From: Candidatus Kapaibacterium sp.
Lineage (GTDB): Bacteria > Bacteroidota > Ignavibacteria > Kapaibacteriales > UBA4661
Reading direction: 5' to 3'
Assembly (NCBI GenBank): GCA_025455065.1
Contig: JALONG010000002.1
Location: forward strand, 64,422 to 128,421
Length of the DNA stretch: 64,000 bases
The notes beneath the pieces were generated by a model. It was not told the origin of the DNA, did no database searches, and was given only the letters and a program-made list of their open reading frames with translations. Positions 24,502 to 49,688 of the stretch are shown piece after piece. Each line of letters begins with the position of its first letter. Position 1 is the first letter of the stretch. A program made the translations under genes and the position numbers.

Positions 24502-24586
24502 AACGGTTCAAAAGGGAAAAGTGAGTGTTTATGCGGATGTGTTGCTCTTTATTGTCGGGAAACTACATAAATCACTGCACAAAACA

Positions 24587-24625
24587 AAAGGCTTTCTACG
24601 TACTTGATTGAAGCAGAAAGCCTTT
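24587..24625 (-). terminator. Rho-independent terminator of the M4-type protease gene
   Basis: AAAGGCTTTCT and AGAAAGCCTTT form an 11-bp perfect stem (24587-24597 with 24615-24625). On the minus strand it is followed by TTTTGTTTTG. It lies 20 bases after the stop of the protease gene and before the chemoreceptor gene. Confidence 0.85.
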
Positions 24626-24644
24626 GATTATTTCATCATTGTTG

Positions 24645-27600: not shown

Positions 27601-28210
27601 GGCTCATCAAAGAAAGTTCTTCTTCGGGGCGCTCCAAACCGCGTAAAATGGTGTTTTCTTTGAGCAGGGCAAATGTTTCGCGGATAATCGGCGCTTGCTG
27701 CGCGGCGCGTGTTTCTGCGTCTTGTGAGCGCATTTCCGCATTGGCAACAAGTGTGTACGGCGTGGACATCTCCACATTTTTGCTGACGCGGCTACGCAGA
27801 CTGCCGAAGCGCCCTTCAGCAAAGCGCAATGTGCCGTTTGCATTATAGCCGATTTCTTGAATATCGCTCTTGCGAAGCATCGTGGAAACTGCTTCGGCAG
27901 ACGTTTTTGTGCGTGAGTTTTGGGCTGAAGGGAGTCTTTGTGCTGTTTGTGTACTTGTTGCTTCCGCTGTACCAAATACATCGGGACGAACATTGAGCGG
28001 AATACGCCGCGCAGTGGTGGTGATTATGCCTTCTTCTGCTTGCAATAGTGCCGGAGAGGTTTTTTCATGCTGGACTTTGGTCGAAGGTTTGCCGGCGGGG
28101 CGTTGTGCGGTTGGTGATTGTGCTTGCGCTTCGGCAGGTGAAAGCGAAAATCCTCCGAGAATACCAACAAAGGCAAGCAAAACAGAGCTAAAGCGGTTAG
28201 GGTGTTTCAT
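24645..28210 (-). pseudogene. Secreted M4/thermolysin-type metalloprotease with beta-propeller and T9SS tail, split by a frameshift
   Basis: Two overlapping frames on the minus strand form one protein of about 1190 residues. The start is ATG 28210, with signal peptide MKHPNRFSSVLLAFVGILGG. A fungalysin/thermolysin-type propeptide follows (TSDRLGFQHIRFEQTYKGLR, VHGRDVYVHAD). The catalytic part has YGHEVGHAYNS near residue 579 and the downstream Glu region GETGALEEHFANLWGWMLDR. WD40-like propeller repeats come next (VTISPDGRSLAMTSTDAND, ISWSPDSRN). The T9SS sorting domain (LSITPNPSSEQASVRFVVPQ) is in the second frame. Near 25411-25420 one base seems to be missing: SWSPDSRN stops making sense, and the other frame continues LVFDAYHELTIEGE. 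The first frame ends at 25388. This is either a real single-base deletion that removes the secretion tail, or a sequencing error. Confidence 0.82.
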
Positions 28211-28532
28211 ATAGACCACGAAAAAGAGTGAGACAAAAACGATGGGCGCTTTTGGGGTAGCGCCAAAACACAAGATACTGAATTATTCCTGTTTGAAAGC
28301 AGGTTGAGCGTGAGAAAATGAGTTTTGATGAGGAATGTTTTCGAGTTTCGTTGTTCACAAATTGAACGAAGGAAAAAATTGCCCAAAGGCGGAAAAATTC
28401 TGTAACTTGGGCGGTAATTTTTGCGTAGCACAAACGAACCTTGTACAACAAGCGCTTGTTGCACAAGTGTTGGGAACGCTAAATACTACGCCACATTGCG
28501 CCATTTCTTTTCATTATACCGCACCGAAAACC
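28211..28532. other. Divergent intergenic region, protease / SpoIIE phosphatase
   Basis: This 322-bp region separates two divergent genes and must hold both promoters. It contains a 26-bp palindrome (28441-28466). It also has a weaker inverted pair, AAAATTGCCCAA near 28375-28386 and TTGGGCGGTAATTTT near 28407-28421. No gene or RNA was recognised in it. Confidence 0.6.
28441..28466. promoter_or_regulatory. 26-bp palindrome, candidate operator
   Basis: CAACAAGCGCTTGTTG (28446-28461) is a perfect 16-bp palindrome; TTGT and ACAA extend it to 26 bp with one mismatched pair. It ends 66 bases before ATG 28533, a plausible site for a dimeric regulator; alternatively the transcript folds as a hairpin. 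Confidence 0.5.
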
Positions 28533-31330: not shown

Positions 31331-34300
31331 ATGAATACGTTTCCTTTGTTCCGTCAGCTTCGTAGCTTGTTTGTGCTGCTTTTCTGCATTGCTCTCCCGA
31401 CGCATATTTTTGCTCAGGTTGGTACTGTTACCACGCTTGCCGGTAGCACGGCGGGCTATCTCGACGGCACAGGGACGGGAGCGCGGTTTGATTCCCCAGT
31501 GGGAGTGGTAAGCGACGGCGCGGGCGGGAATCTTTATGTGGCGGATTTCTTAAATCACCGCATTCGCAGAATTGACGTTGCAACGGGTGTGGTGACAACG
31601 CTTGCAGGAAGCGGTGTTGCGGGCTTTCTTGATGCCACAGGTACGGCGGCTCAGTTTAATAATCCGCACGCATTGTGGTTCGATGGAGCGGGGAATTTGT
31701 ATGTGTCCGATGGTGCGAATGGGGCACGCATTCGCAGAATTGTCATTGCAACAGGCGCGGTTACAACGTTTGCTGGAACGGGCGCATCAGGATTTGTCAA
31801 TGGTCCCGCAGCATCGGCACAGTTTTCTGCGATAAGGAGTCTCACAGGCGACGGTGCGGGAAATCTGTTCGTGTCGGATTTTGGCAACAACGTCATTCGG
31901 AGAATTGTGATAGCTACGGGAGCGGTTTCAACACTTGCAGGGACAGGTGTTCTTGGATATAACGATGGACCAGGTGCGACGGCAATGTTTGATAATATCT
32001 ATGGTATAGGCTGCGATGGTCTGAATGTGTATGTATGCGACGCTGCAAACTTCTGTATTCGCAAAATCGTCATTGCAACGGGCGTGGTATCCACTCTGTC
32101 GGGAACAGGAGTTGCAGGTACTGCTGATGGTGCAGCGGGAGTGGCACAGTTTCTGGGACTAACAAGTGATATGGTCTATGACGGGATCGGTAATTTTTTC
32201 TTTGGCGACTTTCACCGCATTCGCAGCATTTCCGCCGCAACAGGCACGGTCTCAACAGTTGCCGGATCAGGTACAGCGGGCTTTGCTGACGGGGTGGGTG
32301 TTGCAGCACAGTTTAATTTTTTCTCCTCGGGTATTACCCGTGACGCGGCAGGCAATCTCTATATCGCCGACTCTGACAACCACCGCATCCGCAGGCTTGT
32401 CTTTCCACCGCCCACCGTTACCAGCTTTGTGCCAACCAGTGCCTACGCGCTGCAAGCCGTAACGGTGAACGGCACAAACTTCACTGGCGCAACGCAAGTG
32501 CAGTTCGGCGGCGTTAATGCGGCATGGTTTACGGTCGTCTCGGCAACGCAAATACGCGCTGTTGTGCCAATCGGCGGTGCAAGCGGGAACGTGAGCGTTA
32601 CCACTGGCTTGGGAACGGGTTCGTTTGCGGGCTTTACCTTCACCGCAACGCCGCGTGTTTCCTCGTTTGCGGGGCAGCTTACGGGTGGCTTTCTGGATGC
32701 TGTCGGTGGTGCAGCGCAGTTTGTTAATCCCAATGGTATCGGTGTGGACGCTTCGGGAAATATTTATGTGGCGGAGTCGGGCAACAATCGTATTCGCAGA
32801 ATAACGCCGACGGGTGTGGTTACGACCTTTGCAGGAAGCGGCGTTTCGGGTTTTGCCGATAATACGGGTGTTTTAGCGCAGTTCAACGCTCCATCGGGCG
32901 TGGCGTGTGATGCGGTTGGCAATGTCTATGTCGCCGACGAGGGCAACCATTGTATTCGCAGAATTACTCCCGGCGGCGTGGTTACGACGCTGGCGGGCTT
33001 AGGCGGAACTTCAGGCTTTGCCGACGGCACTGGTACGGCGGCGCGGTTCAATAATCCGGCGCGGATGTGCATTGATGCGGCGGGAAATCTCTACGTTCCC
33101 GATGCCAGTAATCACCGCATTCGCAGAGTAGCAACGGCAACGGGCGTGGTTACGACTATTGCCGGAAATGGTACGCCGGCTTCAGTAAACGGTATAGGTA
33201 CTGCGGCACAATTCAACTTTCCCACTGCGACGGCGTTGGATGCGGCTGGCAATGTCTATGTAGCAGAATCAGCCGGCAATCGCATTCGCAAAATCTCTCC
33301 GGCGGGCGTGGTTACGACGCTCGCGGGCAATGGTACTGCCAGCAGCGTTGACGGCACAGGCGCGGCAGCAACCGTAAACTCGCCCGTTGGCTTGGCGACG
33401 GATGCGGCGGGAATGCTGTACATCATCGAATCCGCTTCCAATCGTGTTCGTACTATCAGTCAAAGCGGCGTAGTTACGACCTTCGCTGGAACAGGCGTGT
33501 CAGGGCTTGTGGACGGAACGCTCACCGCCTCGCAATTTGCTTGGATGCGCGGCGCAGTTACTGACGCGGCGGGCAATCTCTATATTAACGACACGGGCAA
33601 CAATACCATTCGCAAAATTAGCGTTGCCCAGCCCGTCGTTACAGGCTTCACGCCAACAAACGCCTACCCATTGCAAGCCGTAACCATAACAGGTACGGAC
33701 TTTTTTGGTGTAACGCAGGTGCGCTTCGGCGGCGTGAACGCAGCGTGGTTTGAAGCGGTTTCGCCAACGCAAATCCGCGCCGTTGTGCCGTTTGGTGCGG
33801 TGAGCGGGAATGTTACCGTTACCAACAGCGCAGGAACGGGGACGTTTGCGGGCTTCACACTTGCCGCCACGCCGCAAGTTTCCACGCTTGCGGGCGATGG
33901 AGCGGCGAATTTCCGCGATGCTGTGGGCGGTGCGGCGCAATTCAATAGCGTGTGTGGAATAGTGCGGGATGCCGCAGGAAACGCCTATATTACCGACCGC
34001 TTAAATCACCTCATTCGCAGAATTACTCCGGCGGGTGTGGTAACAACATTTGCCGGAAGTGGCATTGCTGGTGGGCTCAATGGCACAGGCACAGCAGCGC
34101 AGTTCAGCCAACCCTACGGTATTGCTATCAATGCAGCAGGAACAGACCTATTTGTAGCAGAAGAAACAGGGCATCGGATTCGGCAAATCAATATTGCTAC
34201 AGCAAACGTTACAACGCTGGCAGGAAGCGGTGTAGCGGGTTTTGCGAATGGTACGGGAGTTTCGGCACAGTTCAATACGCCGATTGGTGTTTGCTTGGAC

Positions 34301-37300
34301 GCGGCAGGAAATGTTTATGTCGGTGAACAAGGCAATCATCGTATTCGCATGGTTACGCCCGGTGGCGTGGTTACATCGGTTGCCGGAACAGGAACTGCTG
34401 GTTTTGCCGATGGACTTGCTGTTACTGCTCAATTTAATGCCCCTCGCGGTATTGTCCGCGACGCAGCGGGGAATCTTTATGTTGCCGATTACAACAACAA
34501 TCGTATCCGAAAAATTACTCCGGCGGGTGTTGTCTCTACCCTTGCCGGAAGCGGTGTTGCAGGGAATGTGGATGGCGTTGGTGCTGCGGCACAATTTATC
34601 ACACCAAACGCATTCTGGATTGATCCTATTGGCAATCTCTACCTAGCCGGGGGCAATAATCACAACGTGCGCATTATTTCACCAACAGGAGTAGTAACAA
34701 CACTTGCCGGAACAGGTACACCCAGCTTTGCCGATGGCACGGTTGCCGCAGCACAGTTTAATTTTGTTGCTGGGATTGTGCAAGAATCTTCCGGCTCATT
34801 CCTTGTTGCCGACGAAGGAAATGGCAGAATTCGCCGCGTTGTCCTGCCGCCGCCGACTGTTACGAGCTTCAACGCCACCACAGGCTATCCGGGCTTAGGA
34901 ATCGTCATCAATGGAACAAACCTCGCAACCGTTACGCAAGTGAGTTTCGGTGGCATGGTTTCGCCCTCCTTCACTGTCATTTCCAACACGCAAATCGTTG
35001 CAGCCGTGCCGACGGGCGGTGCGTCGGGAGCGGTGCAAGTAACCAATCCGAGTGGAACGGCTTCGCTGGGTGGCTTTACCTTTACAACGGTGATTCCTCC
35101 GCTATCCACGTTTGCCGGAAATGCTGCACCTGCGGGCTTTGCCAACGGTACGGGCGGTGCTGCGCGGCTTAATGAGCCTATTGGAATTGTCTCGGACGGA
35201 ACGAACCTGTTTTTTGCGGATGCCGCGAATCATGTCATCCGCAGAATTAGCGCAACGGGCGTGGTTACGACGTTTGCAGGAAGCGGCACATCCGGTTTTG
35301 CTGATGGAACAGGCACGGCAGCGCAATTTGCTTCGCCGAGTTGGCTGACGATTGATGGTTCGGGAAATCTCTATGTTGCAGATTATAATAATCATCGTAT
35401 TCGCATGATTACTTCGGGTGGCGTGGTAACGACCATTGCCGGAAGCGGTACTGCGGGCTTTAATGATGCGACAGGTGCGGCGGCGCAGTTTAATCTTCCC
35501 CATAATATTCTTTTTTCGGGTGGATTTCTGTATGTAACCGAAGTCGTTGGAAATAGAATTCGGCGTATATCCCTTCCCGGAGGCGTTGTTACAACAATCG
35601 CTGGAAGTGCCACCGCAGGAAATGCCGATGGAACAGGTGCTGTGGCACAATTTAATTACCCCTACGGTTTGGCTGATGATGCTTTGGGGAATATCATTAT
35701 TACGGATCAAAATAATCATCGCATTCGCAAGATGACTCCTGCTGGCGTGGTAACAACGCTGGCAGGAAGTACCGCAGGATATGCCGATGGAACAGGTGCT
35801 GCGGCACAGTTCACTAGTCCTCGCGGAATTGTGCGCGATGGTGCGAGTGGTTTCTATATTTCTGAATTCGTCAATAGCCGCATTCGGTATGTAACTCCTG
35901 CGGGTGCTGTTACGACGATTGCAGGAGCGGGAACAGCCGGATTTACCGACGGTGCGCTTGCTGCGGGACAGTTTTCCAATCAATTGGAAGGATTAGCACT
36001 CAACTCGTCGGGGGAATTGTTTATTGCCGACCGAGGCAACAATGCCATTCGCCGTACACTCCCGCCATCGCCCGTCGTTACGAGCTTCAACGCCACAACG
36101 GGCTATCCGGGACTTGGCGTTATTATCAACGGCGCAAACTTTTCCGCCGCAACGCAAGTGCAGTTTGGCGGCGTTCCTTCGCCATCCTTTACGATTATTT
36201 CTGCGTCGCAAATCGTCGCAGCCGTGCCTATGGGCGGCGCGTCGGGGAGTGTGAGCGTTACTGCGCCAAGCGGGACGGGTTCGCTTCCCGGATTTACCTT
36301 CACGGCAGTTGTTCCGCCTGTTTCCACCTTTGCTGGAAATGGCGCACCTGCGGGCTTTGCAGATGCACAGCAGGGCGCGGCTCAATTTAACAGTAATTGC
36401 CATATTGCCCGCGATGCTGCGGGAAACATCTATGTTGCTGACCGTCTCAACCACCGCATTCGGCGCATCACTTCTGCGGGCGTAGTAACAACTTTCGCCG
36501 GAAGCGGTACTGCCGGCTCCATGAATGGCATTGGCGCGGCAGCGGAGTTCAATCTTCCACAAGCAGTTGCGCTGAATGCTGCGGGAACTATTTTGTACGT
36601 CGGCGAAGAGGGCGGGCATCGGATTCGCCAAATCAATCTTGCGACGGCAAACGTTACAACCCTTGCCGGAAGCGGTGTTCTGGGCTGGAATGATGCCACT
36701 GGTACTGCCGCGCAGTTTAATGCTCCCATCGGGCTTTGGGTGCAGGCTTCGGGAGATATTCTCGTGGCGGATTCTCAAAATCATCGTATTCGCAGGGTTA
36801 CGACAGGCGGCATCGTTACGACTATCGCCGGAAGCGGCACGGCGGGCTTTGCTGATGGAAGTGCTGCTTCTGCGCAATTTAACACTCCTCGTGGTGTAAG
36901 TGCTGATGCGGCGGGGAATGTATTCGTTGCTGACCACATTAATCATAGTATTCGGAAAATTACTCCGAGCGGTGTTGTTACCACTCTTGCTGGAAGCGGC
37001 GTAGCTGGTGGTGTAGATGGTGTTGGAACGGCTGCACAGTTAAATACTCCCGTGCAGATGTGGCATGATGCCGTAGAGAATATCTATGTTGCTGAACAAA
37101 GCGGACACATTATTCGCGTAATCTCTCCCTATGGCGTTGTAACAAGGGTTGCCGGAACAGGAGCAGCCGCACACATTGACGGAACAACCCTTACAGGACA
37201 GTTTAATTTGCCAACAGGTATTCTTGGTAATCCGATAACGGGTGAACTTTTTGTAAGCGGCAATCGCCTTATTCGGAAAATCGTTCTTCCTGCACCGACT

Positions 37301-40300
37301 GTTACGAGCTTCAACGCCACCACAGGCTATCCGGGCTTGGGCGTGATTATCACGGGTACAAATCTTGCAACCGTTACGCAAGTGCAGTTCGGCGGCGTGG
37401 TTTCGCCATCCTTTACGGTGCTTTCCAATACGCAAATCGTCTCAGCCGTGCCTGCGGGCGGCGCGTCGGGGAATGTGCAAGTAACGAATCCGGGTGGAAC
37501 GGCTTCGCTTGGCGGTTTTACCTTCACGGCGGCAATTCCTGCTGTTTCAACCTTTGCCGGAAACGCCGCTCCTGCTGGCTTTGCTGATGGTACACAAGGC
37601 GCGGCACGGTTCAACACACCAGTCGGCTTGGCGTTCAACGGAATTGGCGAAATGTTCATTGGCGACCAGAACAACCACCGTATTCGCAAAATCACGGCGG
37701 CGGGTGTCGTTACGACCTTCGCAGGAAATGGCACAAGCGGATGGGCGGATGGTACGGGTGCGGCGGCACAGTTTAACAGTCCGAGCGGCATAGCTACCGA
37801 CGCGGCGAATAATGTCTATGTTGCTGATTTCCTTAATCATCGTATTCGCGCTATCACGCCATCAGGTGTGGTTACGACGCTCGCGGGGAGTGGCGTTGCG
37901 GGTTTTAACGATGCAACGGGCTTGGCTGCACAGTTTAACGGTCCAGGTGGCGTAGCCGTCAGTGGTGGCAATCTGTATGTGAGCGATAATTTTGGTCATC
38001 GAATTCGCAGAATTGTCATTGCAACTGGCGTGGTAACGACGCTTGCGGGAAGCGGTACGGCGGGTTTTGCCGATGGTACAGGCGTGGCGGCTCAGTTCTC
38101 CTCGCCACAGGGGCTTGCTACCGATGCTGCGGGAAATGTCTATGTTGCCGACCACATCAATCAACGCATTCGCAAAATCACCCCTGCGGGCGTGGTTACG
38201 ACGTTAGCGGGAAGTGGATTGGGAGGTTTTGCTGATGGCACGGGCGCGGCGGCACAATTTCAGGCACCGCTCGGCGTGAGCGTAGATGCGGCGGGCAATG
38301 TGTATGTTGCCGATGCCTTCAATGCGCGGGTGCGCTTGGTTTCGCCATTAGGTGTCGTTACAACGCTTGCAGGCTCTGGTACGATTGGCTTCGTTGATGG
38401 TACGCTTGCCTTGGGGCAGTTTGGAAATGGTCTTATGGGTATTGCGCTGAACGCAACAAATAGTCTTTTTGTTAGCGATAGAACAAACAACGCCATTCGC
38501 CGCGTTACAACGCCAACTATTGTTACAGCGTTCACGCCCACAAGTGCCGGTCCCGGCGATGTGGTAACGATTACAGGTATCAACTTCACAGGTGCAACCC
38601 AAGTGCAGTTCGGCGGTGTGAATGCAGCCTCCTACACCGTTGTCAATGCGACCACTATTACCGCAACTCCGGCGGCGGGCGGTGCAACGGGCAGCGTGAG
38701 TGTTACTGCACCGTTGGGAACATCGTCGTTGGCGGGTTTTACGTTTTTGCCGAATGTGTTTTATTCGCAAGGCATGGCAGACGTAGGGATTCGCACCAAT
38801 TGGAATTCGCTTCCGGGCGGTGGTGGCGTTGTGCCAACGCTTGGGCAATGGATGAATAAAACGGGCGACACCTACATTTTGCAAGTAACTGCACCACTTC
38901 TTACTCCGCTCACGATTGGTAATGGCGTAACAATGACCAATGCGGCGGGTGCTTCGCTGAATATGAACGCCAATCTCACGATTGCTATCGGTGGTACATA
39001 CACTATTCCTCTTGGTACGTCTATTTCTGCCAACGGACCACATACTTTGACCAACAACGGTACGCTAAACGTCGCAGGAATACTGGGGTTGGTCAATAAC
39101 CCAACCTTCGCTGGCGCTGCGCCGATGTATGTAGCCGGAGCCACGCTTGGTTACAATGGTTCTGGCAACAGCACGGTTACTACAGAGTGGCTTCCAATCA
39201 TGCCTGCTGGGGTAAATGTTGCACTGGGCAAAGACCCGGGAACAACGCTCGCGCTTGCAGCAAACCGAACCGTTAATGGCAATCTTGGAATATTTTCGGG
39301 AACTCTCGCCCTTGCAGCGAACACACTCACTCTGAATGGGCAAATAGATTTTTCAGCAGGGAGTCTGATACAAGGTGGCGCTTCATCTGCTCTCACGATT
39401 GGTGGCGCGGGAGCTTTGTTGGGGGAACTCACAATGACCGCTCCGCAAACGTTTGGTGCAGGTCTGACGATGAATCGCGGCGGCGCGACTCTCACTCTCG
39501 GTTCTGCGCTCACCACGACTCCCGTAACCATTTCCGCCGGAACGCTGAACACAGGCGCTTTTGCGCATACATTTTCCGGATTAACGACTTCACCGGGTTC
39601 TACATTGCTCGTTCCAGCATCGGGAACGGTATCGCCGACGGCAAACTATACGATGAATGGAACGATTGCCATAGACGGCACATTTGATGCAGGTTTGACA
39701 GTTTCTAGCGGCACAGGCGGCATAATCATCAACGCGCTGGGAACCTACTCCACTGCCCATCCTGCGGGACTTGCAGGAGCGCTTACTAACACCGGTCCGA
39801 ATATGTACAACGGTACTATTCGCATACAAGGTGCGACTGTGGGTAATTCGGCGGGATTGATTTTGAACAATCTCACCATTGACCGTCCAGGAACTTCAGT
39901 GACTCTTCCGCAAACGTTGAATGTGAATGGCGTTCTGAGCATCACCAACACAGGAAACTTCAACCTTGCGGGTCAGACGTTCACACTCGGCGCGGCGGCT
40001 TCCACCACTACAAGTGCGACAGGTACGATTGATGCAAGCGGTGCGGCGAGTATTCTCGTTGTTAATAACGCAACGGTGAACGGGGCGCATTTTACCGGTG
40101 GCGTTGTGCGCCGTATGAACATCATCAGTATCCCAACAATAACTAACAGTCTCGCAATAACGGGGCTGCTTGATATGACCAACGACATCACTCTCGGCGC
40201 ACCATACGGGCGTTTGTGGCTTCGGAATACCGCAATGCTGAACGCTCCCGGGACGCGCATTCAAGGCACAAACCAAACAAGCGAAGTGATTGTGGAAAGC

Positions 40301-43300
40301 GGCTTTAATGCTGGGACAATGCCAGGCGGAGCTTTTGCGGCTTCTTACAACGGCGCGGTGAATTTCATCGGTGCGCAAAATCTGTCAGGAAATCTTACCA
40401 TGAACGCTACGGCAGGGGCATTGGCACTGAACGGAAACGTAACGCTGCAAGCCGCATCCGCGCTAACGTTGAACCAAACTAGTGCAAATTCGCTTGTCGG
40501 TACAAACACGCTGCAAGGCGCAGGTGCGACTTCGGTTGTTGTGCTTGGCAATGGCTTTAGTGCCGGTATTCTCCCTGCAAACCGCTTTGCAGCACCGCTA
40601 AACGTAAATCTGACTACTCCGGGGGGAGTGTCCACGTTGGCTGGTGGCAATCTTACGCTGGGAGCCGCACAAACACTCACCTTGGGTGGACGTTTGACCA
40701 CAAGTCTTGCTAATCTTTTGCGCGTAACAAACACCGCAACGACCTCAATTGCAGGCGCGAGTGCCGCTAATTTCATTGATGGACCGCTCGAACGCCAGCT
40801 TTTAGGCGGCATTGCGGCAGATGGAACGACGTACCTCATGCCGATTGGCGAAGGCATAAATTATCGCCCCATTACTCTGCGCGACATCCGAACGGGCGCA
40901 TCACCAGTTGTGCGCGGGACGGTTGCTGCGTCGGGTGCGACCATGCCCGACAATATCACCCTTCTTTCGCTTCTTTCGGGTAGAAATTGGCAATTAGAGC
41001 AGCTTTCAGGCGTATTCACCTCCACCACGCTTGATTTGACCGAAGGCGGGCTTACGCCAACAGATTTGATTGGCATTTCGACTACGCAAGCCGGTACGTA
41101 CTCCAGCATTGGTGGTACGCCGGGCGCGGGCTTTGTTCGCTCAAATGTTCAGGCTGGGCTGGGCGATAGATTCTACGCCATTGCCGGCACACCGCCCGCA
41201 ACATTTTACTACAACGAAACACTCATGGGCGATGCTTCATTACCAACTTCGTGGAACTCCGTTCCCAATGGAAGCGGTGTTACGGCAAGTTTGGGATTGA
41301 TGACCAGTGGTGTGGGTACAGCATTCATCGTACGAAGCGGCATTACGGCAAATGCCTCCAGTAGCCTCACCTTTGGGGCAAATGTTTCACTGACTCTGCA
41401 AGCCTCATCAAACCTAACCGTGCAGGCAGGAACGCTGACGATGAACGGTACGGCAAATGTGTCTGGAACACTTGGTATTGGCGACGGTGCGACGCTGCTC
41501 AATGCTGGCACAACCACGATTACCGCCAATGGCACACTGCGCATTATCGGAGCGGGTGCAGTGAGCGGTAACGTGCCTGTGTATGCTGCTACCAGTTCTG
41601 CGTTGGAATACACTGGTACTGCGCCAAAAACCGTCGGTAGCGAATGGTTGAATCCATTGCCATTCACAGTGCGCATTGCCAACGCAGGTGGGGTACGGCT
41701 TCCAAGCACACGGACACTAGCAAATACTGCCAATCTTACCGTGCAGTCAAACGGCGTACTCACGATTGGTAACGGTGTTGATTTGGTGAACAACGGAAAC
41801 CTGCTTGTCGCAGGCTTGGGAACAATTCGCCTCGACGGAAGCGGTCAGATAACGGGCGCGAGCGGCATTTCGTATTTATCAACCTCCACCCTTGAATTTA
41901 GCAATGCTGCGGCAACGCCGAACACCACGTCGGGTGGCAAGGCATTTCCAACACCAATGAACGCAAACGTCGTTGTGAACAATGCCGTAACCCTCACCGA
42001 AGGCAAGCAAATAAATGGCTCGTGGACGGGCTTAGGAGGCAGTGTAAACCTGAATAGCAACACACTCACATTGTCGGGCGAAATTTCATTTGGCGGAACA
42101 AGTTTTGTGAGCAACGCATCAAGTGGCTTGGTGATTGCTGGAAGTGGTACGGTAACAGGTCTCACGACGATCACAGGCGGTGCAATCGGAGTATTGACGA
42201 TGAACCGCACCGGAGCGATACTCACCAATACCGCGCCAGTACAGGTGGTGAACACATTGACCCTGCAAAATGGATTCATTTCTACTACGTCAGGAATGAT
42301 TACACTCACAAACCCAGCAGTGGCAGGTTTGGTGGGCGGTTCGGCAATGTCTCATATCATTGGTGGTCTGGAGCGGGCTGTGCAGCCTAGTTTATCCTCA
42401 AGTCCTCTTCAGTACGTTTTTCCTATTGCGAAGAGTGGTGCGTATTTACCCCTTGTGCTAACGAATCTCACAACGGGCATTTCTGCGCCGATTGTCCGCG
42501 CAGAGGCGTTCACAACAAGTGTTGCGGGCGGTATCCTTTCCACAACAGGAAGCCTCAGCCTAACGGAATATTGGCAAACAACCCTCGTAAGCGGCACCTA
42601 CACAAGCGGCGCGGCAATACTCACACGTCCAACGCTGGCAGCAAGCAACAGTACGGCTTTCGCGCCAAACACTGGAACAATCTTTGCTCCATCCGGCGGA
42701 ACGCTTGCAGGAATGAACCCAACGGGGACAATCACAAGTGGTGTAGTTGCTGGTCTGGGGCGGTTTGCAATTACTTTCCCATCGTCGGTTTTGATTGGTA
42801 ATTTTTCGCCAACATCGGGCGGACCTGGAACGGTTGTAACGATAACGGGAAGCGGCTTCACGGGTGCAACAGCGGTGCGTTTTGGTGGTGTCAATGCGGC
42901 ATCATTCACTGTGAACTCGGCAAACAGCATCAACGCTACGCTTGCCTCAGGCGCAACTGGAACAATAGACGTGGTGACACCCCTCGGAACGGGCACGTCA
43001 GACTCGACCTTTACTGTTATCGGACCACCCACAATTACAGCATTTGCACCGTTAGGCGGTCCTCCGGGAACAGTGGTAACGCTAACCGGAGCGAATTTCG
43101 TGAACGTGAGCAGTGTCAGCTTTGGTAGCTTCCCAACCTTTATTCCGGCTTCGTCGTTCACAGTGCTTTCGCAAACACTAATGCAAGTTACCGTTCCGCC
43201 GGGCGGTGTGGGATTGATTCAAGTTACTGCCACAGGTGGTACAGTCATCTCCAGTACGCCTTTTTTGCCTGTCGCACCGCCAAGAATTACCTCATTTTCG

Positions 43301-46300
43301 CCCACAATCGGCAGAGGAGGTATAGTAGTCACAATTCTTGGAACTGACCTTTCAAGTGTAACACAGGTAGAATTTACCGGTGCTCGGGCGCTTTCTTTTT
43401 CAAGAATTTCGCCGACAAGGATTGATGCTATTGTACCTGTTACAGCGCTCACGGGACCAATAATGCTTGTTTCGTCACTTGGCTCGACAACATCCAGTCA
43501 GAGATTTACCTTTTCGCTCACGATGACCACAACCGGAACGACAACGGCAACCACTATAGAGCCACGTGCAGCGGCTGCGGGAACGATGCTGACGATGACA
43601 GGAAGCGCTTTGAATAGCGTTAGGCTGGTACAAATTCTTAATGGTACGACGATTTTCACGCTTCCGATGTTTACTCGCCTTGATTCTACTCGCATTTCGT
43701 TCCCAATGCCTGCTTTAAGTTTTGTCGGCGATAGTATTCCGATGAAAATTCTGACCACTTCCGGTGCATTCCCCGACACCGCAGCAACGATATATGCACT
43801 TCAAACGCCTGTTATTACAAGCGTTAAAGCTGATAGTGGTAGCCCTGGAAGTATGATAACGATGCGCGGACAATACTTCACGGCTGCAAAAATAGGAATT
43901 CTTACGGACTCAATAGCGGTGAGCTTCAAGGGTGATTCGTTAGGAACGACAAGTGTTCGTGCTAATTTTCAACAGATTTCTTCTACTGAACTTCTCATAA
44001 CCGTTCCCAACGGCATTCCGTATAACAACAATACGATAACGCTTCGGGCGCGTGGCGTAAACGTGCAAGCACCGGAGAAGTGGCTCAATATTCCGCCGAG
44101 GCCCGTCATTAGGGCGCAATCGCTTGATAGCGGCGAGGTTGGCGAGACAATTACACTCACCGGAGCGAACTTTTTTGCGGGCAGTACAGTATTCTTTAAT
44201 GGCGTAGCAGCCGCATCAACACAGGTAATTTCCACAACGAGCGTTGTGGCCGTTGTACCATTTGGAGCAACAACGGGGCGTATTACACTGAATAATGTGT
44301 ATGGCGTTGCCATTGCGCCACGCACATTTACAATCCTTCAGCCCCGAACTCGCATAACGTCTTTCTCGCCAATGCGCGGCGGCGTAGGAACGCTAGTTCG
44401 GCTAAGGGGTTTGCTGTTCGACACCACTGGCGCTGGGGTCGTCTCGTTTAACGACATACCTGCACAGACTCTGGTTTCTTCTACCACTGAAGTCCTTGCG
44501 GTTGTGCCAACGGGGGTAAGTATAGGCGCGGCAACAGTCAGCATTATCGGCAGGAATGGTGCCTTTACTTCCACACAAGCATTTATCGTCCTTCCTGCAC
44601 CGATTATTTCCAACATTGACCCTATTTCTGCCGGTGCGGATGAAACGATAACGCTCACTGGGCGTAATTTTACGGGCGTAACGACGGTAACGATAAATGG
44701 TCGTGTATTGCAAAATATGGTAGTTCTTTCGGATGGAAGTATTACTGCTAGTTTGGCGGATGTTCCTGTTGGAATCGGTACGGTCACAGCATTTAGTCAG
44801 GGAGGGCAGGGCAGTTACGGTGTACCGTTCGAGTTATTGCCACCAAGTCTTGCTAACGCGCCGCGTATTGAGTCCTTCAGCCCTGCCTTTGGTCCGGCCG
44901 GAACGAGGCTTGTGATTCGCGGACGGAATTTCTTCACGATAGCATCTGCGAGGGTTGGCGGTGTTTTGGGGTCAGTGGAACAGATTTCCACGACGGAAGT
45001 GATTGTGATTGTTGGGCGTGGTGCGTCTGGCGCAATCACGCTTTCCAACGAGTTCGGTTCAAGGGGAAGCCGCACGGCATTCCGCTACCAAACGCCGCTC
45101 GACCTTGACTCACTTGCACTTCTGGCGTTTTACGATGCTCACCGAGCCGAAAGTGCCATGCTTCCACGTCTTTGGAAAACGCTGAATCCTTTAACAGCAT
45201 GGGAAGGCATAAGAGTTCAAGCGGTCTCCACACAAGATGGCTTTTCTGATGAACGCATTACGATGGTGAACTTAGACGGCAAAATGCTGAATGGCAGAAT
45301 GACTGGCGGGCGATTGAATGTAAGTAATCTTGCACGTCTGACGGAATTGCGGGTATTGAATTTGAGTAATAATCAACTCTCGGGTGAACTTGTCGGAATG
45401 CTTGCACCGTTTCGCCAGCTTCAGGACTTGCGTTTAGCAGGAAACGGCTTTGTGGGTGAGTTGCTTCCTGCGTTTGGCGCACAGGGTTTTCCGGCAATGC
45501 TGGAAACACTGGACCTACGGCGGAATAAGCTGACAGGCGGCATCAGTGCTGAGGTGTTTTCATTGCCAAATTTGCGCGAGTTGCTGCTGTCGGATAATGC
45601 GTTCTCTGGCGGGCTGCGTATTACGAGCGGGACTCTGGCTAAAACTGCACGAACACGAACACGAGCGACTGCGCCACTAGAACGCTTGGAGATAAGCAAT
45701 AATCAGCTTACGGGTGCAGTTCCACATGAGATTGGTACATTCGTGCGACTTCAAACGCTGCTTTTGGATGGGAACAGCTTCACAGAGCAGATTCCGTCTG
45801 GGATTGGCGAGTGTGTGCAGTTGCAAACAGTGGATATGAGTCGTAATGCGCTCTCTGGGGCGGTACCGCCTGAGTTGAGCCGTTGTGGGCGTTTGCAGAG
45901 ACTCGTCTTGTCCGATAATCGCTTAAGCGCCCTTCCTGATTTGTCGGTGTTAAGCCGTAGCCTACGGCTTTTGCGCGTGGAAAATAATCGTCTGGATTTT
46001 GGAGCATTGGAAGCAAATATGGTTCTGGATACGATCCGATATATCCCTCAAGACAGCATAGATGCTGCTTCCGCAGTGATGACGGGCATTATCGGAGCAC
46101 CGCTTCGTATTCAACTAAACGTCGGCGGTGTGAATAATCGTTTTCAATGGTCAGTGAACGGACGCAGTACTGATAGGCTTCCTGCGGCGTTTCGATTTGC
46201 CGATACGGGCGTGTATGTATGCCGTATTACCAACAGCCGCGTTCCGGGATTGACGCTTATTTCTCGTCCGGTGCGGGTGCTGGGGCGATTGCCGAATCCT

Positions 46301-48046
46301 CCAAACAGCGCACCACGCCTTGTTTCTCCGTCGAATAATGCTACGGGTGTTCCGGCGGATTCGCTGCTGCTTGCGTGGACGGAGATTGCCGAAGCAACGG
46401 AATATGAGGTGCAAGTAAGTGCCACAGCAAGTTTTGATACGCCGTTGCGGTCGTTTCGCGTGAGCAGCACGGCAAATGTGGTTTTGAATTTTACCAATTT
46501 GACGCGGTATTTTTGGCGAGTACGTGCCGTCAATGCCGGTGGCATCAGTGCTTGGTCGCAGCCGAACAGTTTTGTTACGGTTCGCGCCGGAGCGCTGGTG
46601 AGCGCGGTTGCGGAGACATTTCAAAAAACAGCAATTGGTGATGCGAGTTTTTCGCGGCTTACGCTGAAAAATTTGACCTTGCAGCCGCTCCGCATAGACT
46701 CTTTGCGCTTTACAGAGGTTGGTAGCGCTGCGGAAAACAGTTTTTCCACCAGAACGGCGTTTCGTTCTCTGACGCTTGGCGGGCGGGAAGAGCGAACGGT
46801 CGTGATTGCCTTTGAGCCAAAGAGTATCGGAAGAAAACTTGGAAATTTGGATGCTTCGCTCACGGTTATTTCCACACAAACACAAGAGCGCGAATCGTTT
46901 CCCGGTGCGCTTTCGGGCGCGGGAACGGCTCTGAAAGCGCTTCCGGTGAATTTTGATACCGTTATTGCAGGACGCGCGGCGATTTTGCCTGCTGTTCTCA
47001 TCAATCGTGGGCGGACGGCGCTTACAATTTCCAGCTTCGCCTTTGCAAACAGCACTAACGGCTTAGTTTCGGGCGTGTTTATGTTCCAAGATGCAGGAAA
47101 TAAGCCACTTCGTGAAGTGCCAATCAAACGCGGCGATGCTATCCGTATGCAAAGCGGCGATACCTTAACCATTGTAACCCGCATAGAACCTCAACAAACA
47201 GGCTTTCAAGCAACAAGCCTTGTCTGGACGGCTAACGGCGAGGGTGCTGATACGGTTGAAACGCCCGTAACAGCGTTTGTGAAGCCCCCGGAGCCTGCGG
47301 ATGTGATTGTGCGTTTGGGTGTTCGTGCGGTGGACGGCGAAGGGAAACCGCTTCAACGGGCAGTTCCGGGCGCGGCGTTTGGCTTGGAGGTGTATATTGC
47401 AGAGGGGAATTTGGACAGCCTTTTCCGCATCACGCAGCCTGAATTTACGGCAACGGTGCGCTACGACCGCAATGTTGCTGTGCTTGCAAGCGAAGGCGTG
47501 GCACGTCTTATGCGCGATGCTGCCGCCAGAGTACAGCGTTTTACGATCCCTCCTTTGCGTTGGAGCGGCAGAGGAACGCGCTTGGCATTGATACCGATGC
47601 GAGCCGTCGCGGGCGACACCACAGAAACGGCAGTGGAGATAGAATCGGCACTCTGGGGTGGAGCGGCTTTGGGTGGACGAGCGCAGTGGGAGCGGCGGGT
47701 GTTTGTCGTTGCGCCCGAAGGCAGCATCTTTGGTACGGAAGTCTCAAGAGCAGGCGGAAAGCGGCTTGTAGCGCCTTCGACCACAGCTCTGCGGATAACG
47801 CGGCTTTCGCCAAATCCAACCAAGGATGTGCTGGAACTCGCCTACACACTGGGCGAAACGGGTTTAGTGGAAATTACGCTGCTGAATGTGAAGGGCGAAA
47901 CAGTACAAGTGTTAAAACAAGAAGTGGAGCGGAGTGGAGAACATCTACTCCCAAGCCGCGTGGACAGGCTTCCAAGCGGCACATATACGGTACAGGTGCG
48001 GATGAATGGAGCGGTGGAATCGAGGCAGGTGCAAGTGGTGCGATAG
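31331..48046 (+). CDS. Giant T9SS-exported surface protein with NHL propellers, TIG domains and leucine-rich repeats
   Basis: A 5571-residue protein. It begins with a signal peptide (MNTFPLFRQLRSLFVLLFCI, cleavage near IFAQ). Residues ~30-2475 are six modules, each a six-bladed NHL propeller (36 repeats with cores like NLYVADYNNHRIR) plus one TIG/IPT domain (TSFNATTGYPGLG). Residues ~2476-3815 are beta-rich, helix- or adhesin-like repeats (LTMNGTANVSGTLGIGD). Residues ~3820-4587 hold nine TIG domains. Residues ~4588-4900 form a leucine-rich-repeat region (LRVLNLSNNQLSGEL). Ig-like (~4920-4985) and FnIII-like (~4994-5083) segments, an ASH-like region and a cohesin-like region follow. The end is a T9SS sorting domain (LSPNPTKDVLELAYTLGE). 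It is probably anchored to or released from the cell surface for adhesion or binding. It converges with the hybrid kinase gene, 6 bases apart. Confidence 0.92.
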   Translation: MNTFPLFRQLRSLFVLLFCIALPTHIFAQVGTVTTLAGSTAGYLDGTGTGARFDSPVGVVSDGAGGNLYVADFLNHRIRRIDVATGVVTTLAGSGVAGFLDATGTAAQFNNPHALWFDGAGNLYVSDGANGARIRRIVIATGAVTTFAGTGASGFVNGPAASAQFSAIRSLTGDGAGNLFVSDFGNNVIRRIVIATGAVSTLAGTGVLGYNDGPGATAMFDNIYGIGCDGLNVYVCDAANFCIRKIVIATGVVSTLSGTGVAGTADGAAGVAQFLGLTSDMVYDGIGNFFFGDFHRIRSISAATGTVSTVAGSGTAGFADGVGVAAQFNFFSSGITRDAAGNLYIADSDNHRIRRLVFPPPTVTSFVPTSAYALQAVTVNGTNFTGATQVQFGGVNAAWFTVVSATQIRAVVPIGGASGNVSVTTGLGTGSFAGFTFTATPRVSSFAGQLTGGFLDAVGGAAQFVNPNGIGVDASGNIYVAESGNNRIRRITPTGVVTTFAGSGVSGFADNTGVLAQFNAPSGVACDAVGNVYVADEGNHCIRRITPGGVVTTLAGLGGTSGFADGTGTAARFNNPARMCIDAAGNLYVPDASNHRIRRVATATGVVTTIAGNGTPASVNGIGTAAQFNFPTATALDAAGNVYVAESAGNRIRKISPAGVVTTLAGNGTASSVDGTGAAATVNSPVGLATDAAGMLYIIESASNRVRTISQSGVVTTFAGTGVSGLVDGTLTASQFAWMRGAVTDAAGNLYINDTGNNTIRKISVAQPVVTGFTPTNAYPLQAVTITGTDFFGVTQVRFGGVNAAWFEAVSPTQIRAVVPFGAVSGNVTVTNSAGTGTFAGFTLAATPQVSTLAGDGAANFRDAVGGAAQFNSVCGIVRDAAGNAYITDRLNHLIRRITPAGVVTTFAGSGIAGGLNGTGTAAQFSQPYGIAINAAGTDLFVAEETGHRIRQINIATANVTTLAGSGVAGFANGTGVSAQFNTPIGVCLDAAGNVYVGEQGNHRIRMVTPGGVVTSVAGTGTAGFADGLAVTAQFNAPRGIVRDAAGNLYVADYNNNRIRKITPAGVVSTLAGSGVAGNVDGVGAAAQFITPNAFWIDPIGNLYLAGGNNHNVRIISPTGVVTTLAGTGTPSFADGTVAAAQFNFVAGIVQESSGSFLVADEGNGRIRRVVLPPPTVTSFNATTGYPGLGIVINGTNLATVTQVSFGGMVSPSFTVISNTQIVAAVPTGGASGAVQVTNPSGTASLGGFTFTTVIPPLSTFAGNAAPAGFANGTGGAARLNEPIGIVSDGTNLFFADAANHVIRRISATGVVTTFAGSGTSGFADGTGTAAQFASPSWLTIDGSGNLYVADYNNHRIRMITSGGVVTTIAGSGTAGFNDATGAAAQFNLPHNILFSGGFLYVTEVVGNRIRRISLPGGVVTTIAGSATAGNADGTGAVAQFNYPYGLADDALGNIIITDQNNHRIRKMTPAGVVTTLAGSTAGYADGTGAAAQFTSPRGIVRDGASGFYISEFVNSRIRYVTPAGAVTTIAGAGTAGFTDGALAAGQFSNQLEGLALNSSGELFIADRGNNAIRRTLPPSPVVTSFNATTGYPGLGVIINGANFSAATQVQFGGVPSPSFTIISASQIVAAVPMGGASGSVSVTAPSGTGSLPGFTFTAVVPPVSTFAGNGAPAGFADAQQGAAQFNSNCHIARDAAGNIYVADRLNHRIRRITSAGVVTTFAGSGTAGSMNGIGAAAEFNLPQAVALNAAGTILYVGEEGGHRIRQINLATANVTTLAGSGVLGWNDATGTAAQFNAPIGLWVQASGDILVADSQNHRIRRVTTGGIVTTIAGSGTAGFADGSAASAQFNTPRGVSADAAGNVFVADHINHSIRKITPSGVVTTLAGSGVAGGVDGVGTAAQLNTPVQMWHDAVENIYVAEQSGHIIRVISPYGVVTRVAGTGAAAHIDGTTLTGQFNLPTGILGNPITGELFVSGNRLIRKIVLPAPTVTSFNATTGYPGLGVIITGTNLATVTQVQFGGVVSPSFTVLSNTQIVSAVPAGGASGNVQVTNPGGTASLGGFTFTAAIPAVSTFAGNAAPAGFADGTQGAARFNTPVGLAFNGIGEMFIGDQNNHRIRKITAAGVVTTFAGNGTSGWADGTGAAAQFNSPSGIATDAANNVYVADFLNHRIRAITPSGVVTTLAGSGVAGFNDATGLAAQFNGPGGVAVSGGNLYVSDNFGHRIRRIVIATGVVTTLAGSGTAGFADGTGVAAQFSSPQGLATDAAGNVYVADHINQRIRKITPAGVVTTLAGSGLGGFADGTGAAAQFQAPLGVSVDAAGNVYVADAFNARVRLVSPLGVVTTLAGSGTIGFVDGTLALGQFGNGLMGIALNATNSLFVSDRTNNAIRRVTTPTIVTAFTPTSAGPGDVVTITGINFTGATQVQFGGVNAASYTVVNATTITATPAAGGATGSVSVTAPLGTSSLAGFTFLPNVFYSQGMADVGIRTNWNSLPGGGGVVPTLGQWMNKTGDTYILQVTAPLLTPLTIGNGVTMTNAAGASLNMNANLTIAIGGTYTIPLGTSISANGPHTLTNNGTLNVAGILGLVNNPTFAGAAPMYVAGATLGYNGSGNSTVTTEWLPIMPAGVNVALGKDPGTTLALAANRTVNGNLGIFSGTLALAANTLTLNGQIDFSAGSLIQGGASSALTIGGAGALLGELTMTAPQTFGAGLTMNRGGATLTLGSALTTTPVTISAGTLNTGAFAHTFSGLTTSPGSTLLVPASGTVSPTANYTMNGTIAIDGTFDAGLTVSSGTGGIIINALGTYSTAHPAGLAGALTNTGPNMYNGTIRIQGATVGNSAGLILNNLTIDRPGTSVTLPQTLNVNGVLSITNTGNFNLAGQTFTLGAAASTTTSATGTIDASGAASILVVNNATVNGAHFTGGVVRRMNIISIPTITNSLAITGLLDMTNDITLGAPYGRLWLRNTAMLNAPGTRIQGTNQTSEVIVESGFNAGTMPGGAFAASYNGAVNFIGAQNLSGNLTMNATAGALALNGNVTLQAASALTLNQTSANSLVGTNTLQGAGATSVVVLGNGFSAGILPANRFAAPLNVNLTTPGGVSTLAGGNLTLGAAQTLTLGGRLTTSLANLLRVTNTATTSIAGASAANFIDGPLERQLLGGIAADGTTYLMPIGEGINYRPITLRDIRTGASPVVRGTVAASGATMPDNITLLSLLSGRNWQLEQLSGVFTSTTLDLTEGGLTPTDLIGISTTQAGTYSSIGGTPGAGFVRSNVQAGLGDRFYAIAGTPPATFYYNETLMGDASLPTSWNSVPNGSGVTASLGLMTSGVGTAFIVRSGITANASSSLTFGANVSLTLQASSNLTVQAGTLTMNGTANVSGTLGIGDGATLLNAGTTTITANGTLRIIGAGAVSGNVPVYAATSSALEYTGTAPKTVGSEWLNPLPFTVRIANAGGVRLPSTRTLANTANLTVQSNGVLTIGNGVDLVNNGNLLVAGLGTIRLDGSGQITGASGISYLSTSTLEFSNAAATPNTTSGGKAFPTPMNANVVVNNAVTLTEGKQINGSWTGLGGSVNLNSNTLTLSGEISFGGTSFVSNASSGLVIAGSGTVTGLTTITGGAIGVLTMNRTGAILTNTAPVQVVNTLTLQNGFISTTSGMITLTNPAVAGLVGGSAMSHIIGGLERAVQPSLSSSPLQYVFPIAKSGAYLPLVLTNLTTGISAPIVRAEAFTTSVAGGILSTTGSLSLTEYWQTTLVSGTYTSGAAILTRPTLAASNSTAFAPNTGTIFAPSGGTLAGMNPTGTITSGVVAGLGRFAITFPSSVLIGNFSPTSGGPGTVVTITGSGFTGATAVRFGGVNAASFTVNSANSINATLASGATGTIDVVTPLGTGTSDSTFTVIGPPTITAFAPLGGPPGTVVTLTGANFVNVSSVSFGSFPTFIPASSFTVLSQTLMQVTVPPGGVGLIQVTATGGTVISSTPFLPVAPPRITSFSPTIGRGGIVVTILGTDLSSVTQVEFTGARALSFSRISPTRIDAIVPVTALTGPIMLVSSLGSTTSSQRFTFSLTMTTTGTTTATTIEPRAAAAGTMLTMTGSALNSVRLVQILNGTTIFTLPMFTRLDSTRISFPMPALSFVGDSIPMKILTTSGAFPDTAATIYALQTPVITSVKADSGSPGSMITMRGQYFTAAKIGILTDSIAVSFKGDSLGTTSVRANFQQISSTELLITVPNGIPYNNNTITLRARGVNVQAPEKWLNIPPRPVIRAQSLDSGEVGETITLTGANFFAGSTVFFNGVAAASTQVISTTSVVAVVPFGATTGRITLNNVYGVAIAPRTFTILQPRTRITSFSPMRGGVGTLVRLRGLLFDTTGAGVVSFNDIPAQTLVSSTTEVLAVVPTGVSIGAATVSIIGRNGAFTSTQAFIVLPAPIISNIDPISAGADETITLTGRNFTGVTTVTINGRVLQNMVVLSDGSITASLADVPVGIGTVTAFSQGGQGSYGVPFELLPPSLANAPRIESFSPAFGPAGTRLVIRGRNFFTIASARVGGVLGSVEQISTTEVIVIVGRGASGAITLSNEFGSRGSRTAFRYQTPLDLDSLALLAFYDAHRAESAMLPRLWKTLNPLTAWEGIRVQAVSTQDGFSDERITMVNLDGKMLNGRMTGGRLNVSNLARLTELRVLNLSNNQLSGELVGMLAPFRQLQDLRLAGNGFVGELLPAFGAQGFPAMLETLDLRRNKLTGGISAEVFSLPNLRELLLSDNAFSGGLRITSGTLAKTARTRTRATAPLERLEISNNQLTGAVPHEIGTFVRLQTLLLDGNSFTEQIPSGIGECVQLQTVDMSRNALSGAVPPELSRCGRLQRLVLSDNRLSALPDLSVLSRSLRLLRVENNRLDFGALEANMVLDTIRYIPQDSIDAASAVMTGIIGAPLRIQLNVGGVNNRFQWSVNGRSTDRLPAAFRFADTGVYVCRITNSRVPGLTLISRPVRVLGRLPNPPNSAPRLVSPSNNATGVPADSLLLAWTEIAEATEYEVQVSATASFDTPLRSFRVSSTANVVLNFTNLTRYFWRVRAVNAGGISAWSQPNSFVTVRAGALVSAVAETFQKTAIGDASFSRLTLKNLTLQPLRIDSLRFTEVGSAAENSFSTRTAFRSLTLGGREERTVVIAFEPKSIGRKLGNLDASLTVISTQTQERESFPGALSGAGTALKALPVNFDTVIAGRAAILPAVLINRGRTALTISSFAFANSTNGLVSGVFMFQDAGNKPLREVPIKRGDAIRMQSGDTLTIVTRIEPQQTGFQATSLVWTANGEGADTVETPVTAFVKPPEPADVIVRLGVRAVDGEGKPLQRAVPGAAFGLEVYIAEGNLDSLFRITQPEFTATVRYDRNVAVLASEGVARLMRDAAARVQRFTIPPLRWSGRGTRLALIPMRAVAGDTTETAVEIESALWGGAALGGRAQWERRVFVVAPEGSIFGTEVSRAGGKRLVAPSTTALRITRLSPNPTKDVLELAYTLGETGLVEITLLNVKGETVQVLKQEVERSGEHLLPSRVDRLPSGTYTVQVRMNGAVESRQVQVVR
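31418..38755 (+). repeat. Six tandem NHL-propeller + TIG modules with ~1.22-kb period
   Basis: The TIG domains start near 32409, 33631, 34853, 36070, 37296 and 38513, so the module length is about 1220 bp (407 residues). Inside each, six NHL units of about 165 bp repeat. Bases such as GTTACGAGCTTCAACGCCAC recur nearly unchanged at modules 3, 4 and 5, so the array is repetitive at DNA level and prone to recombination or misassembly. Confidence 0.9.
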
Positions 48047-48052
48047 TATTGC

Positions 48053-49639
48053 TTAGGTTGTTCTATTGTGTCCTAACGTCGGCAATTCCACAACAAAAGT
48101 TGTTCCGGGAATACCCTCATCTTTTCTACTTTCCACCCAAATTTTACCATTGTGGAGTGCGACAATTTTTTTTGCGATTGCCAACCCGACACCGTGCGAA
48201 CTTTCGCCTCCTGTCGGGTGAGCGGAAAGGCGTTGAAAAAAGCGAAACATTAACGCTTTATCCTCTTCGCTAATGCCCGGACCTTGGTCTTCAACCTCAA
48301 TTCGTGCAATGTGTTGCATCTTTGTCTTTCTGTCTGTTGGTATAACCGTTGTTGTCTCTGTTTTCATTTCCTCCGACATTTCCTTGCTCATCTCAGTTAT
48401 TGAGGAGTGGGGTTTTTTCTCATGCAATTTTGCAGGGCTGCTGTTTGCAGGACTTCTTTTTGCAGGGCTGCTGTACAGGCGAACATGAACGGTGGAATTG
48501 AGGGGGGAGTATTTGATGGCGTTTGAGAGCAAATTCTCGAAAACTTGACGAAGGCGCTGACTGTCGGCGGTAATGAGGATGTTTTCTTCCAATTCAATCT
48601 GAATATGCTGATTCTTTCGTTCTGCAAGTTCTGAAAAACTGTCAGTTACGGCTCCTACTAAACTTCCCAAGTAAAAATTATCGGGTACAACCGACATCTC
48701 ACCCATTTCAATTGCTGCTGAGTCGAGAAGGTTTGTGATGAGAGACATCATCGAAGAAGAGGTTGTCTCTATGGAATGTAGTGCTGTGTGAAGTAATTCA
48801 CGACTAAACTCTTGATTTTCTAACTCGAAGAGTGCTATGCCCGCAAATCCTGTAATGGCACTGACGGGATTTTTCAAATCGTGTGCCACTACTGATAAAA
48901 TCTGGGTTTTGAATTGGTTTACGGCGTGAAGTTCAGTATTGGTCTCATTCAATTTGTCGTAAGCATATTGGAGATTTTTGTGGGTATGTTGTAACTCCTG
49001 TGTGCGCTCATCAACCAGTATTTCTAATTGATAGCGGAATTTCTCTAACTCTACCATATGCTTGTATGCTCTGAGTGCAACAGTGATAACGGTCATCAGC
49101 CGCACATCGCTTAATTCGGTTTTGCTGCGGTAATCGTTGATGTCGTAATGCCGAATTACCTCAAATTCGGGGGCTTCATCCGGTTGTCCGGTGCGCAAAA
49201 CAATGCGAACAAAACTATTACAGAGTTCGTTGCGGATATGTTTGACAAGTTGCAAACCGGCATCGCGCCCATCCATTACCACATCTAGCAAAATAACGGC
49301 AATATTCGGCGTTGAAGCAAGAATTTGCCGCGCCTCGGCGGCAGAATAAGCACTAAGAATTTCTATTCGTTGCTCTTGAAACGTAAAGTGTTTCAGCGCA
49401 TAACGGGTTACGGTGTGAATTGCCTCATCGTCATCTACAACCAAGACAACAAGCGGTTTGTTGTCGGTGCTTTTGTTATCTAAAATGCCGGAAGAGGTTG
49501 TGCCGGAGTAGCTTATGCCGGAGTAGGTTGTGCCGGAAGGGATAGGAGATGAAGACGTATTGACAAGGCTGTCAGCGCTTGTTTGTGTGGTTGATAGATC
49601 CTCATCAACAAACGTTTGAACATCGTAATCGTTGTGCAT
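48053..49639 (-). CDS. Receiver-histidine kinase hybrid response regulator
   Basis: The start is ATG 49639 (an upstream GTG at 49669 is possible), giving 528 residues. A Ser/Thr/Gly-rich N-terminus (residues ~25-50) precedes a receiver domain: VVLVVDDDEAIHTVTRYAL, phosphoacceptor Asp near residue 117 in VILLDVVMDGRDAG, and RIVLRTGQP. A coiled linker leads to the HisKA domain with His near residue 252 (SVVAHDLKNPVSAITGFAGI). The ATPase part has the N-box RLRQVFENLLSNAIKYSPLN, then EVEDQGPGI, MFRFFQRLSA and SHGVGLAIAKKIV. Between the N-box and the G1 box sits an unusual ~55-residue polar insertion (SSPAKRSPANSSPAK and more). It lies downstream of the propeller kinase in the same direction and is its likely phosphorelay partner. 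Confidence 0.9.
   Translation of the reverse strand: MHNDYDVQTFVDEDLSTTQTSADSLVNTSSSPIPSGTTYSGISYSGTTSSGILDNKSTDNKPLVVLVVDDDEAIHTVTRYALKHFTFQEQRIEILSAYSAAEARQILASTPNIAVILLDVVMDGRDAGLQLVKHIRNELCNSFVRIVLRTGQPDEAPEFEVIRHYDINDYRSKTELSDVRLMTVITVALRAYKHMVELEKFRYQLEILVDERTQELQHTHKNLQYAYDKLNETNTELHAVNQFKTQILSVVAHDLKNPVSAITGFAGIALFELENQEFSRELLHTALHSIETTSSSMMSLITNLLDSAAIEMGEMSVVPDNFYLGSLVGAVTDSFSELAERKNQHIQIELEENILITADSQRLRQVFENLLSNAIKYSPLNSTVHVRLYSSPAKRSPANSSPAKLHEKKPHSSITEMSKEMSEEMKTETTTVIPTDRKTKMQHIARIEVEDQGPGISEEDKALMFRFFQRLSAHPTGGESSHGVGLAIAKKIVALHNGKIWVESRKDEGIPGTTFVVELPTLGHNRTT
48430..48480 (-). repeat. Low-complexity repeat inside the kinase ATPase domain
   Basis: GCAGGGCTGCTGT, GCAGGACTTCTTT and GCAGGGCTGCTGT recur in short order and encode SSPAK/SPAN units on the minus strand. 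They form part of the polar insertion between the N-box and the G1 box. Confidence 0.7.
49485..49544 (-). repeat. 15-bp tandem repeat in the N-terminal linker of the hybrid kinase gene
   Basis: Four copies of a 15-base unit (ATGCCGGAGTAGGTT-like, start positions 49485, 49500, 49515, 49530) encode YSG/SG-type five-residue units just before the receiver domain. Changes in copy number would keep the frame. Confidence 0.9.
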
Positions 49640-49688
49640 AATATCATTACAGTTATCAAAATGAAGCACGATTCGGTTCGTTGATTCA

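Follow-up and report, generated by a model that had tools for sequence, protein, structure and literature searches.

A giant, probably surface-anchored T9SS protein of Candidatus Kapaibacterium with six NHL propeller-TIG modules, and sequence patterns suggesting cassette-like turnover of its propellers

Introduction

Solved bacterial proteins close to the one described here include the Bacteroides IPT/TIG-NHL "auxiliary nutrient binding" proteins, whose loci have SusC/SusD neighbours. Their chains (PDB 4hw6, named as an IPT/TIG domain protein, and 3tc9; also 3hrp) have about 400-430 residues and one propeller, and no array, beta-repeat stem or T9SS tail is seen in them. Six-bladed NHL propellers are also present in metazoan teneurins and in a bacterial Teneurin-like protein (9ifo). 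Teneurin-like proteins combine one NHL domain with an FN-plug and a YD/RHS shell (PMC13018210). Among eukaryotic proteins, the lumenal NHL domain of SOQ1 (7djm) and NHLRC2 (6g7w) belong to single-propeller proteins with other partner domains.

Genomes of environmental Bacteroidota commonly encode giant surface proteins, which are little described, and a literature search that missed most subscription journals returned no published description of NHL-TIG arrays or of T9SS giants of this kind. Here we analyzed one such protein, encoded in a 64,000-nucleotide stretch of a Candidatus Kapaibacterium genome (the window). The architecture is real, and the evolutionary mechanism that we propose for it is testable.

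Results and discussion

The ORF at 31331..48046 (+) is one unbroken frame with an ATG start, encoding 5571 aa (P0001), exactly as the original prediction had placed it. A signal peptide is readable by eye in the translation at the N terminus (31331..31420) and is followed by six modules, each made of a six-bladed NHL propeller and one TIG domain. Segmentation and a blade profile place them at 31430..32653, 32654..33874, 33875..35095, 35099..36313, 36320..37537 and 37544..38770 (+), with the TIG domains starting at about 32411, 33632, 34853, 36071, 37295 and 38510, respectively. Pfam detected NHL repeats (PF01436, 365 bits against a cut-off of 20) in 17 separately significant stretches and TIG (PF01833, 123 bits against 20.9) in six stretches, with a TIG after each propeller; it also matched LRR (LRR_4, LRR_8) and TEN_NHL. 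Manual segmentation and a profile of the blades derived from the protein itself both gave 36 blades, six per propeller, spaced by about 54 aa, a regularity far beyond chance. The earlier claim of 36 repeats in six propeller-TIG modules was right.

The order claimed for the regions downstream, including the T9SS tail, likewise matches Pfam and inspection. The modules are followed (all +) by a first beta-repeat block (38765..41194), probably beta-helix-like according to a low-confidence model, and by a second (41195..42754) that is kept in orthologues (71-81% aa identity, G004-G006). Next come a second stack of TIG/Ig-like domains (42755..45094; Pfam and the module profile, which recognised six domains), leucine-rich repeats (45095..45874; LRR_4 and LRR_8), an Ig-like region assigned by inspection and kept in orthologues (45875..46204; 51-62%) and a sub-threshold FnIII-like domain (46205..46504; fn3 23.0 bits against 25, Ig_Rha78A_N 25.6 against 27.4). 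The C-terminal beta-rich region (46505..47704) is weakly ASH/Cep192-like (Pfam 14.2 bits, below the cut-off), and the sorting tail (Por_Secre_tail) lies at 47810..48019. The model of beta-block 1 had a mean pLDDT of 63.5, was better over about residues 35-590 only and was beta-helix-like in part; its comparison with the PDB gave nothing significant, the best match being Ag43 (E 0.01).

AlphaFold2 was run on modules 3 and 4 together (815 aa, a 15-row alignment of the protein itself and related loci). The model (pLDDT 90.6, pTM 0.78) contains two propellers, both closed and six-bladed, and two Ig-like TIG domains, in agreement with the six-bladed fold predicted earlier from the repeats; the angle between the neighbouring modules is not reliable. 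Each propeller has six four-stranded blades, with a short N-terminal strand that completes blade 6 before the chain enters the Ig-like TIG domain. Completion of the last blade by a strand from the N terminus is ordinary propeller closure. VIA-align matched the model to solved NHL propellers with Z scores of 31-45. The closest fold was SOQ1 (7djm; Z 45.0, rmsd 1.5 over 310 residues), followed by NHLRC2 (6g7w; Z 43.3), the Teneurin-like protein 9ifo (Z 40.1, 35% identity) and TRIM71 (9jur; Z 37.5), and the Bacteroides IPT/TIG-NHL proteins share the fold at Z 32-35. By sequence, the top PDB chain was 9ifo (219 bits). A Teneurin-type shell can be set aside, as neither Pfam nor NCBIfam returned an RHS/YD family for the whole protein. 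Over the propeller region, SGL and Vgb_lyase appear as secondary Pfam matches, which would fit propellers that are each an enzyme of the lactonase, SMP-30 or Vgb-lyase type. However, these matches are weaker than those to NHL and TEN_NHL, cross-matching is expected between propeller families and the nearest solved folds are NHL domains, and we give this reading very little credence.

The original prediction also held that the domain combination is unusual, which is too strong. Within the lineage, these modules are found again in paralogues of the host genome and in its family (G004-G006, G001, G007 and G009), and tandem arrays of NHL-TIG type are not unique, since relatives and other Bacteroidota have similar ones. 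Like the giant described here, locus L037 of a Chitinophagaceae MAG (nzgw143) joins six-bladed NHL propellers through Ig-like linkers in one giant frame. That frame (1301-21370) holds 66 NHL blades in 11 six-bladed propellers and extends to the end of the fetched stretch, which leaves its tail outside the view. The linkers differ, being He_PIG plus TIG (about 180 aa) in L037 and TIG alone in our protein. Some propellers of L037 are up to 94% alike. At least six propellers each, with He_PIG linkers, were found in Mucilaginibacter (L057, by Pfam) and in a Bacteroidetes MAG (L038, by eye). Two family members, G007 and G009, also encode proteins of another design, in which a single propeller is followed by further TIG domains: one NHL-TIG module precedes about 39 TIG repeats in G007 (L121, contig C4) and at least 14, up to the contig end, in G009 (L117, contig C142), both with a spacing of about 80 aa.

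Type A cargo of the T9SS carries a Sec signal peptide and a C-terminal sorting domain. The tail of our protein matched PF18962 with 28.4 bits in Pfam (cut-off 27) and 32.8 bits in the genome search, and fell just under the cut-off of TIGR04183 (22.8 against 23). The host genome encodes a T9SS, with a PorU-type sortase (796 bits against 420) and SprA_N (109 bits against 27), and contains at least 150 Por_Secre_tail matches, that of the giant included. Many of its tail-bearing frames are 1000-5573 aa long, a very large T9SS cargo set for 5.6 Mb. In T9SS cargo, it is the C-terminal tail that lies at the surface of the cell, which would put the propellers at the distal end. The protein is probably exported by the T9SS and anchored on the cell surface, with the heads displayed away from it.

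Between modules of the ORF, protein identity is 47-67% and DNA identity 54-67%. Autocorrelation gave its strongest period at 815 aa, the length of two modules, because the closest pairs are modules 3/5 and 4/6. The longest exact DNA run common to two modules is 44 nt (modules 3/5), all others being 23 nt or less, and TRF found no tandem array in the DNA of the ORF because the modules are too diverged. Given this divergence, short reads could resolve the array. Several of the genomes used for comparison are fragmented metagenome assemblies, and errors of assembly, whether collapse, expansion or chimeric contigs, might in principle produce an array or a mosaic. However, the short exact matches, the count of 0 Ns in the contigs read and the same architecture in independently assembled relatives make a collapse or expansion of the array unlikely. 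Propellers shared between species are 80-94% identical in DNA, and not 100% as expected of a chimera with a co-occurring strain. We consider an artefact of either kind highly improbable.

The host genome belongs to the same genus as G001-G007. Orthologues of the giant in G004, G005 and G006 have the stem and tail in common with it and vary in the array: G004 has seven full modules, G005 six and G006 five, compared with six in our protein, and every module has six blades. Identity to these orthologues is 67-72% for beta-block 1 and 38-62%, depending on the region, for the rest of the C-terminal half. In G006, no propeller separates the signal peptide from the first TIG domain, whose DNA is 87% identical to that of our TIG1, as if propeller 1 alone were missing. 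In G004, it is the second TIG and not the first that matches our TIG1 (88% DNA), which would fit the insertion of a TIG-propeller unit behind propeller 1. These patterns suggest an evolutionary process, a cassette-like turnover of propellers on a conserved stem.

Synonymous divergence varies along the gene. For rpoB, dS is 0.94 between our genome and G004, 0.97 between ours and G005, 1.05 between G004 and G005, and 0.39 between G005 and G006. Several propellers are far closer: dS is 0.24 between our module 6 and module 7 of G004 (95% aa identity), 0.38 between our module 1 and that of G005, and 0.11 between module 1 of G004 and of G005. These modules were compared by position and may be paralogues, and several of the genomes are metagenome assemblies. 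The stem of the same three genome pairs has dS values of 1.23-3.50 where estimable. Adjacent segments can differ sharply in either direction: between our module 5 and module 6 of G004, the propeller has a dS of 1.84 and the TIG one of 0.36, whereas between G004 and G005 the propeller of module 1 has 0.11 and its TIG 1.25. In sliding identity, the few breakpoints examined lie at TIG edges or array ends. Between species, DNA identity to the nearest TIG is mostly 78-90%, and to the nearest propeller 62-94%. The trees also conflict, as the C-terminus supports G005 with G006 at 100/100, in agreement with the rpoB distances, whereas the last module rejects this pairing (p-AU 0.0015). The topology of beta-block 2 also conflicted, but not significantly (p-AU 0.10).

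The mosaic could also come from uneven constraint, or from gene conversion within one gene, instead of exchange between species. TIGs are more alike than propellers within genes too (62% against 57% nt in our ORF), as conversion of the TIGs would give, and modules 3 and 5 share the 44-nt exact run. However, it is not the protein alone but also the synonymous divergence that falls below that of rpoB at particular propellers and rises in the next segment, and conversion inside one species cannot bring two species closer than their rpoB. We consider this explanation quite improbable. That some propellers have a dS lower than that of rpoB argues for exchange between species over uneven constraint. 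Most simply, these data would be read as homologous recombination at the TIG joints that moves propellers as whole units. The comparisons suggest that such units have been acquired, lost and exchanged between species, with the remainder of the protein unchanged.

Anatomy, predicted fold, T9SS genes, change in copy number and mosaic divergence, all established by computation, lead us to favor a model in which the giant is displayed at the surface by the T9SS and ends distally in an array of probable ligand-binding heads, turned over as cassettes by recombination at the TIG joints; on balance, we hold this to be probable. The six closed six-bladed propellers and their TIG joints would form the distal, N-terminal end, and the beta-repeat blocks, TIG stack, LRR, Ig/FnIII domains and sorting tail a conserved, cell-proximal stem. 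Each propeller would most likely be a binding head of its own, perhaps of benefit to the cell, in an adhesin or a receptor for glycans or proteins, and the "long stalk with many ligand-binding discs" that was proposed from the repeats is plausible. The likeness of the TIG joints in DNA between species may permit homologous recombination there, each event of which would insert, delete or exchange a single complete propeller and keep the frame and the six-blade closure. A more specific version, which we put forward only tentatively, is a receptor diversified by recombination, in which whole propellers are traded between species through the TIG joints on a conserved T9SS stem and confer species-specific specificities.

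Instead of binding ligands, the propellers might be rigid beads that set length and spacing in a passive structural fibre or cell-coat scaffold, without a specific ligand. The composition of the ORF, rich in G, A, T and V with very few K and C, would suit such a role, as would the weak likeness of the beta-repeat block model to autotransporter passengers. The hypervariability of the blades is also generic. Their most variable positions are 23, 25, 40 and 41, beside a conserved proline and in the D-x-x-N loop, and in 801 blades taken from other bacteria these positions vary just as much (profile correlation 0.86); the variability is thus general to this type of NHL and does not prove selection, and we rejected it as a sign of selection on this array. 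However, a spacer would not need closed six-bladed propellers, and a scaffold leaves unexplained the exchange of whole propellers between joints that stay alike. We regard the scaffold as unlikely and retain the model of distal binding heads turned over as cassettes.

If whole closed propellers are indeed the unit of exchange, this family would be a clear natural case of domain shuffling in which the fold is kept intact. It would also supply binding studies with a ready-made set of interchangeable heads, and would suggest, in testable form, how uncultured bacteria alter what they adhere to or recognise.

The gene neighbourhood of the orthologues is not conserved, and the flanking genes differ. 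The nine large ORFs neighbouring our giant gave no match to SusD or a TonB receptor, and an anti-phage defence role was discarded, with no PADLOC match. The clearest neighbour shared across orthologue loci is a second giant, in G006. In our window, this second giant occupies 53970-63998 and runs beyond the window, its frame in the genome having 4307 aa; it too has TIGs and a T9SS tail, but its NHL blocks are more diverged. Its homologue (55% over 2594 aa) adjoins the G006 orthologue of the main giant on the opposite strand. Directly downstream of the main giant, on the other strand, 48053-53309 (-) encodes a Reg_prop/Y_Y_Y sensor with a histidine-kinase ATPase domain and an adjoining response-regulator/histidine-kinase ORF. 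Upstream, 22210-31013 encodes a NIT-domain chemoreceptor, a thermolysin-like M4 peptidase and a SpoIIE-type phosphatase.
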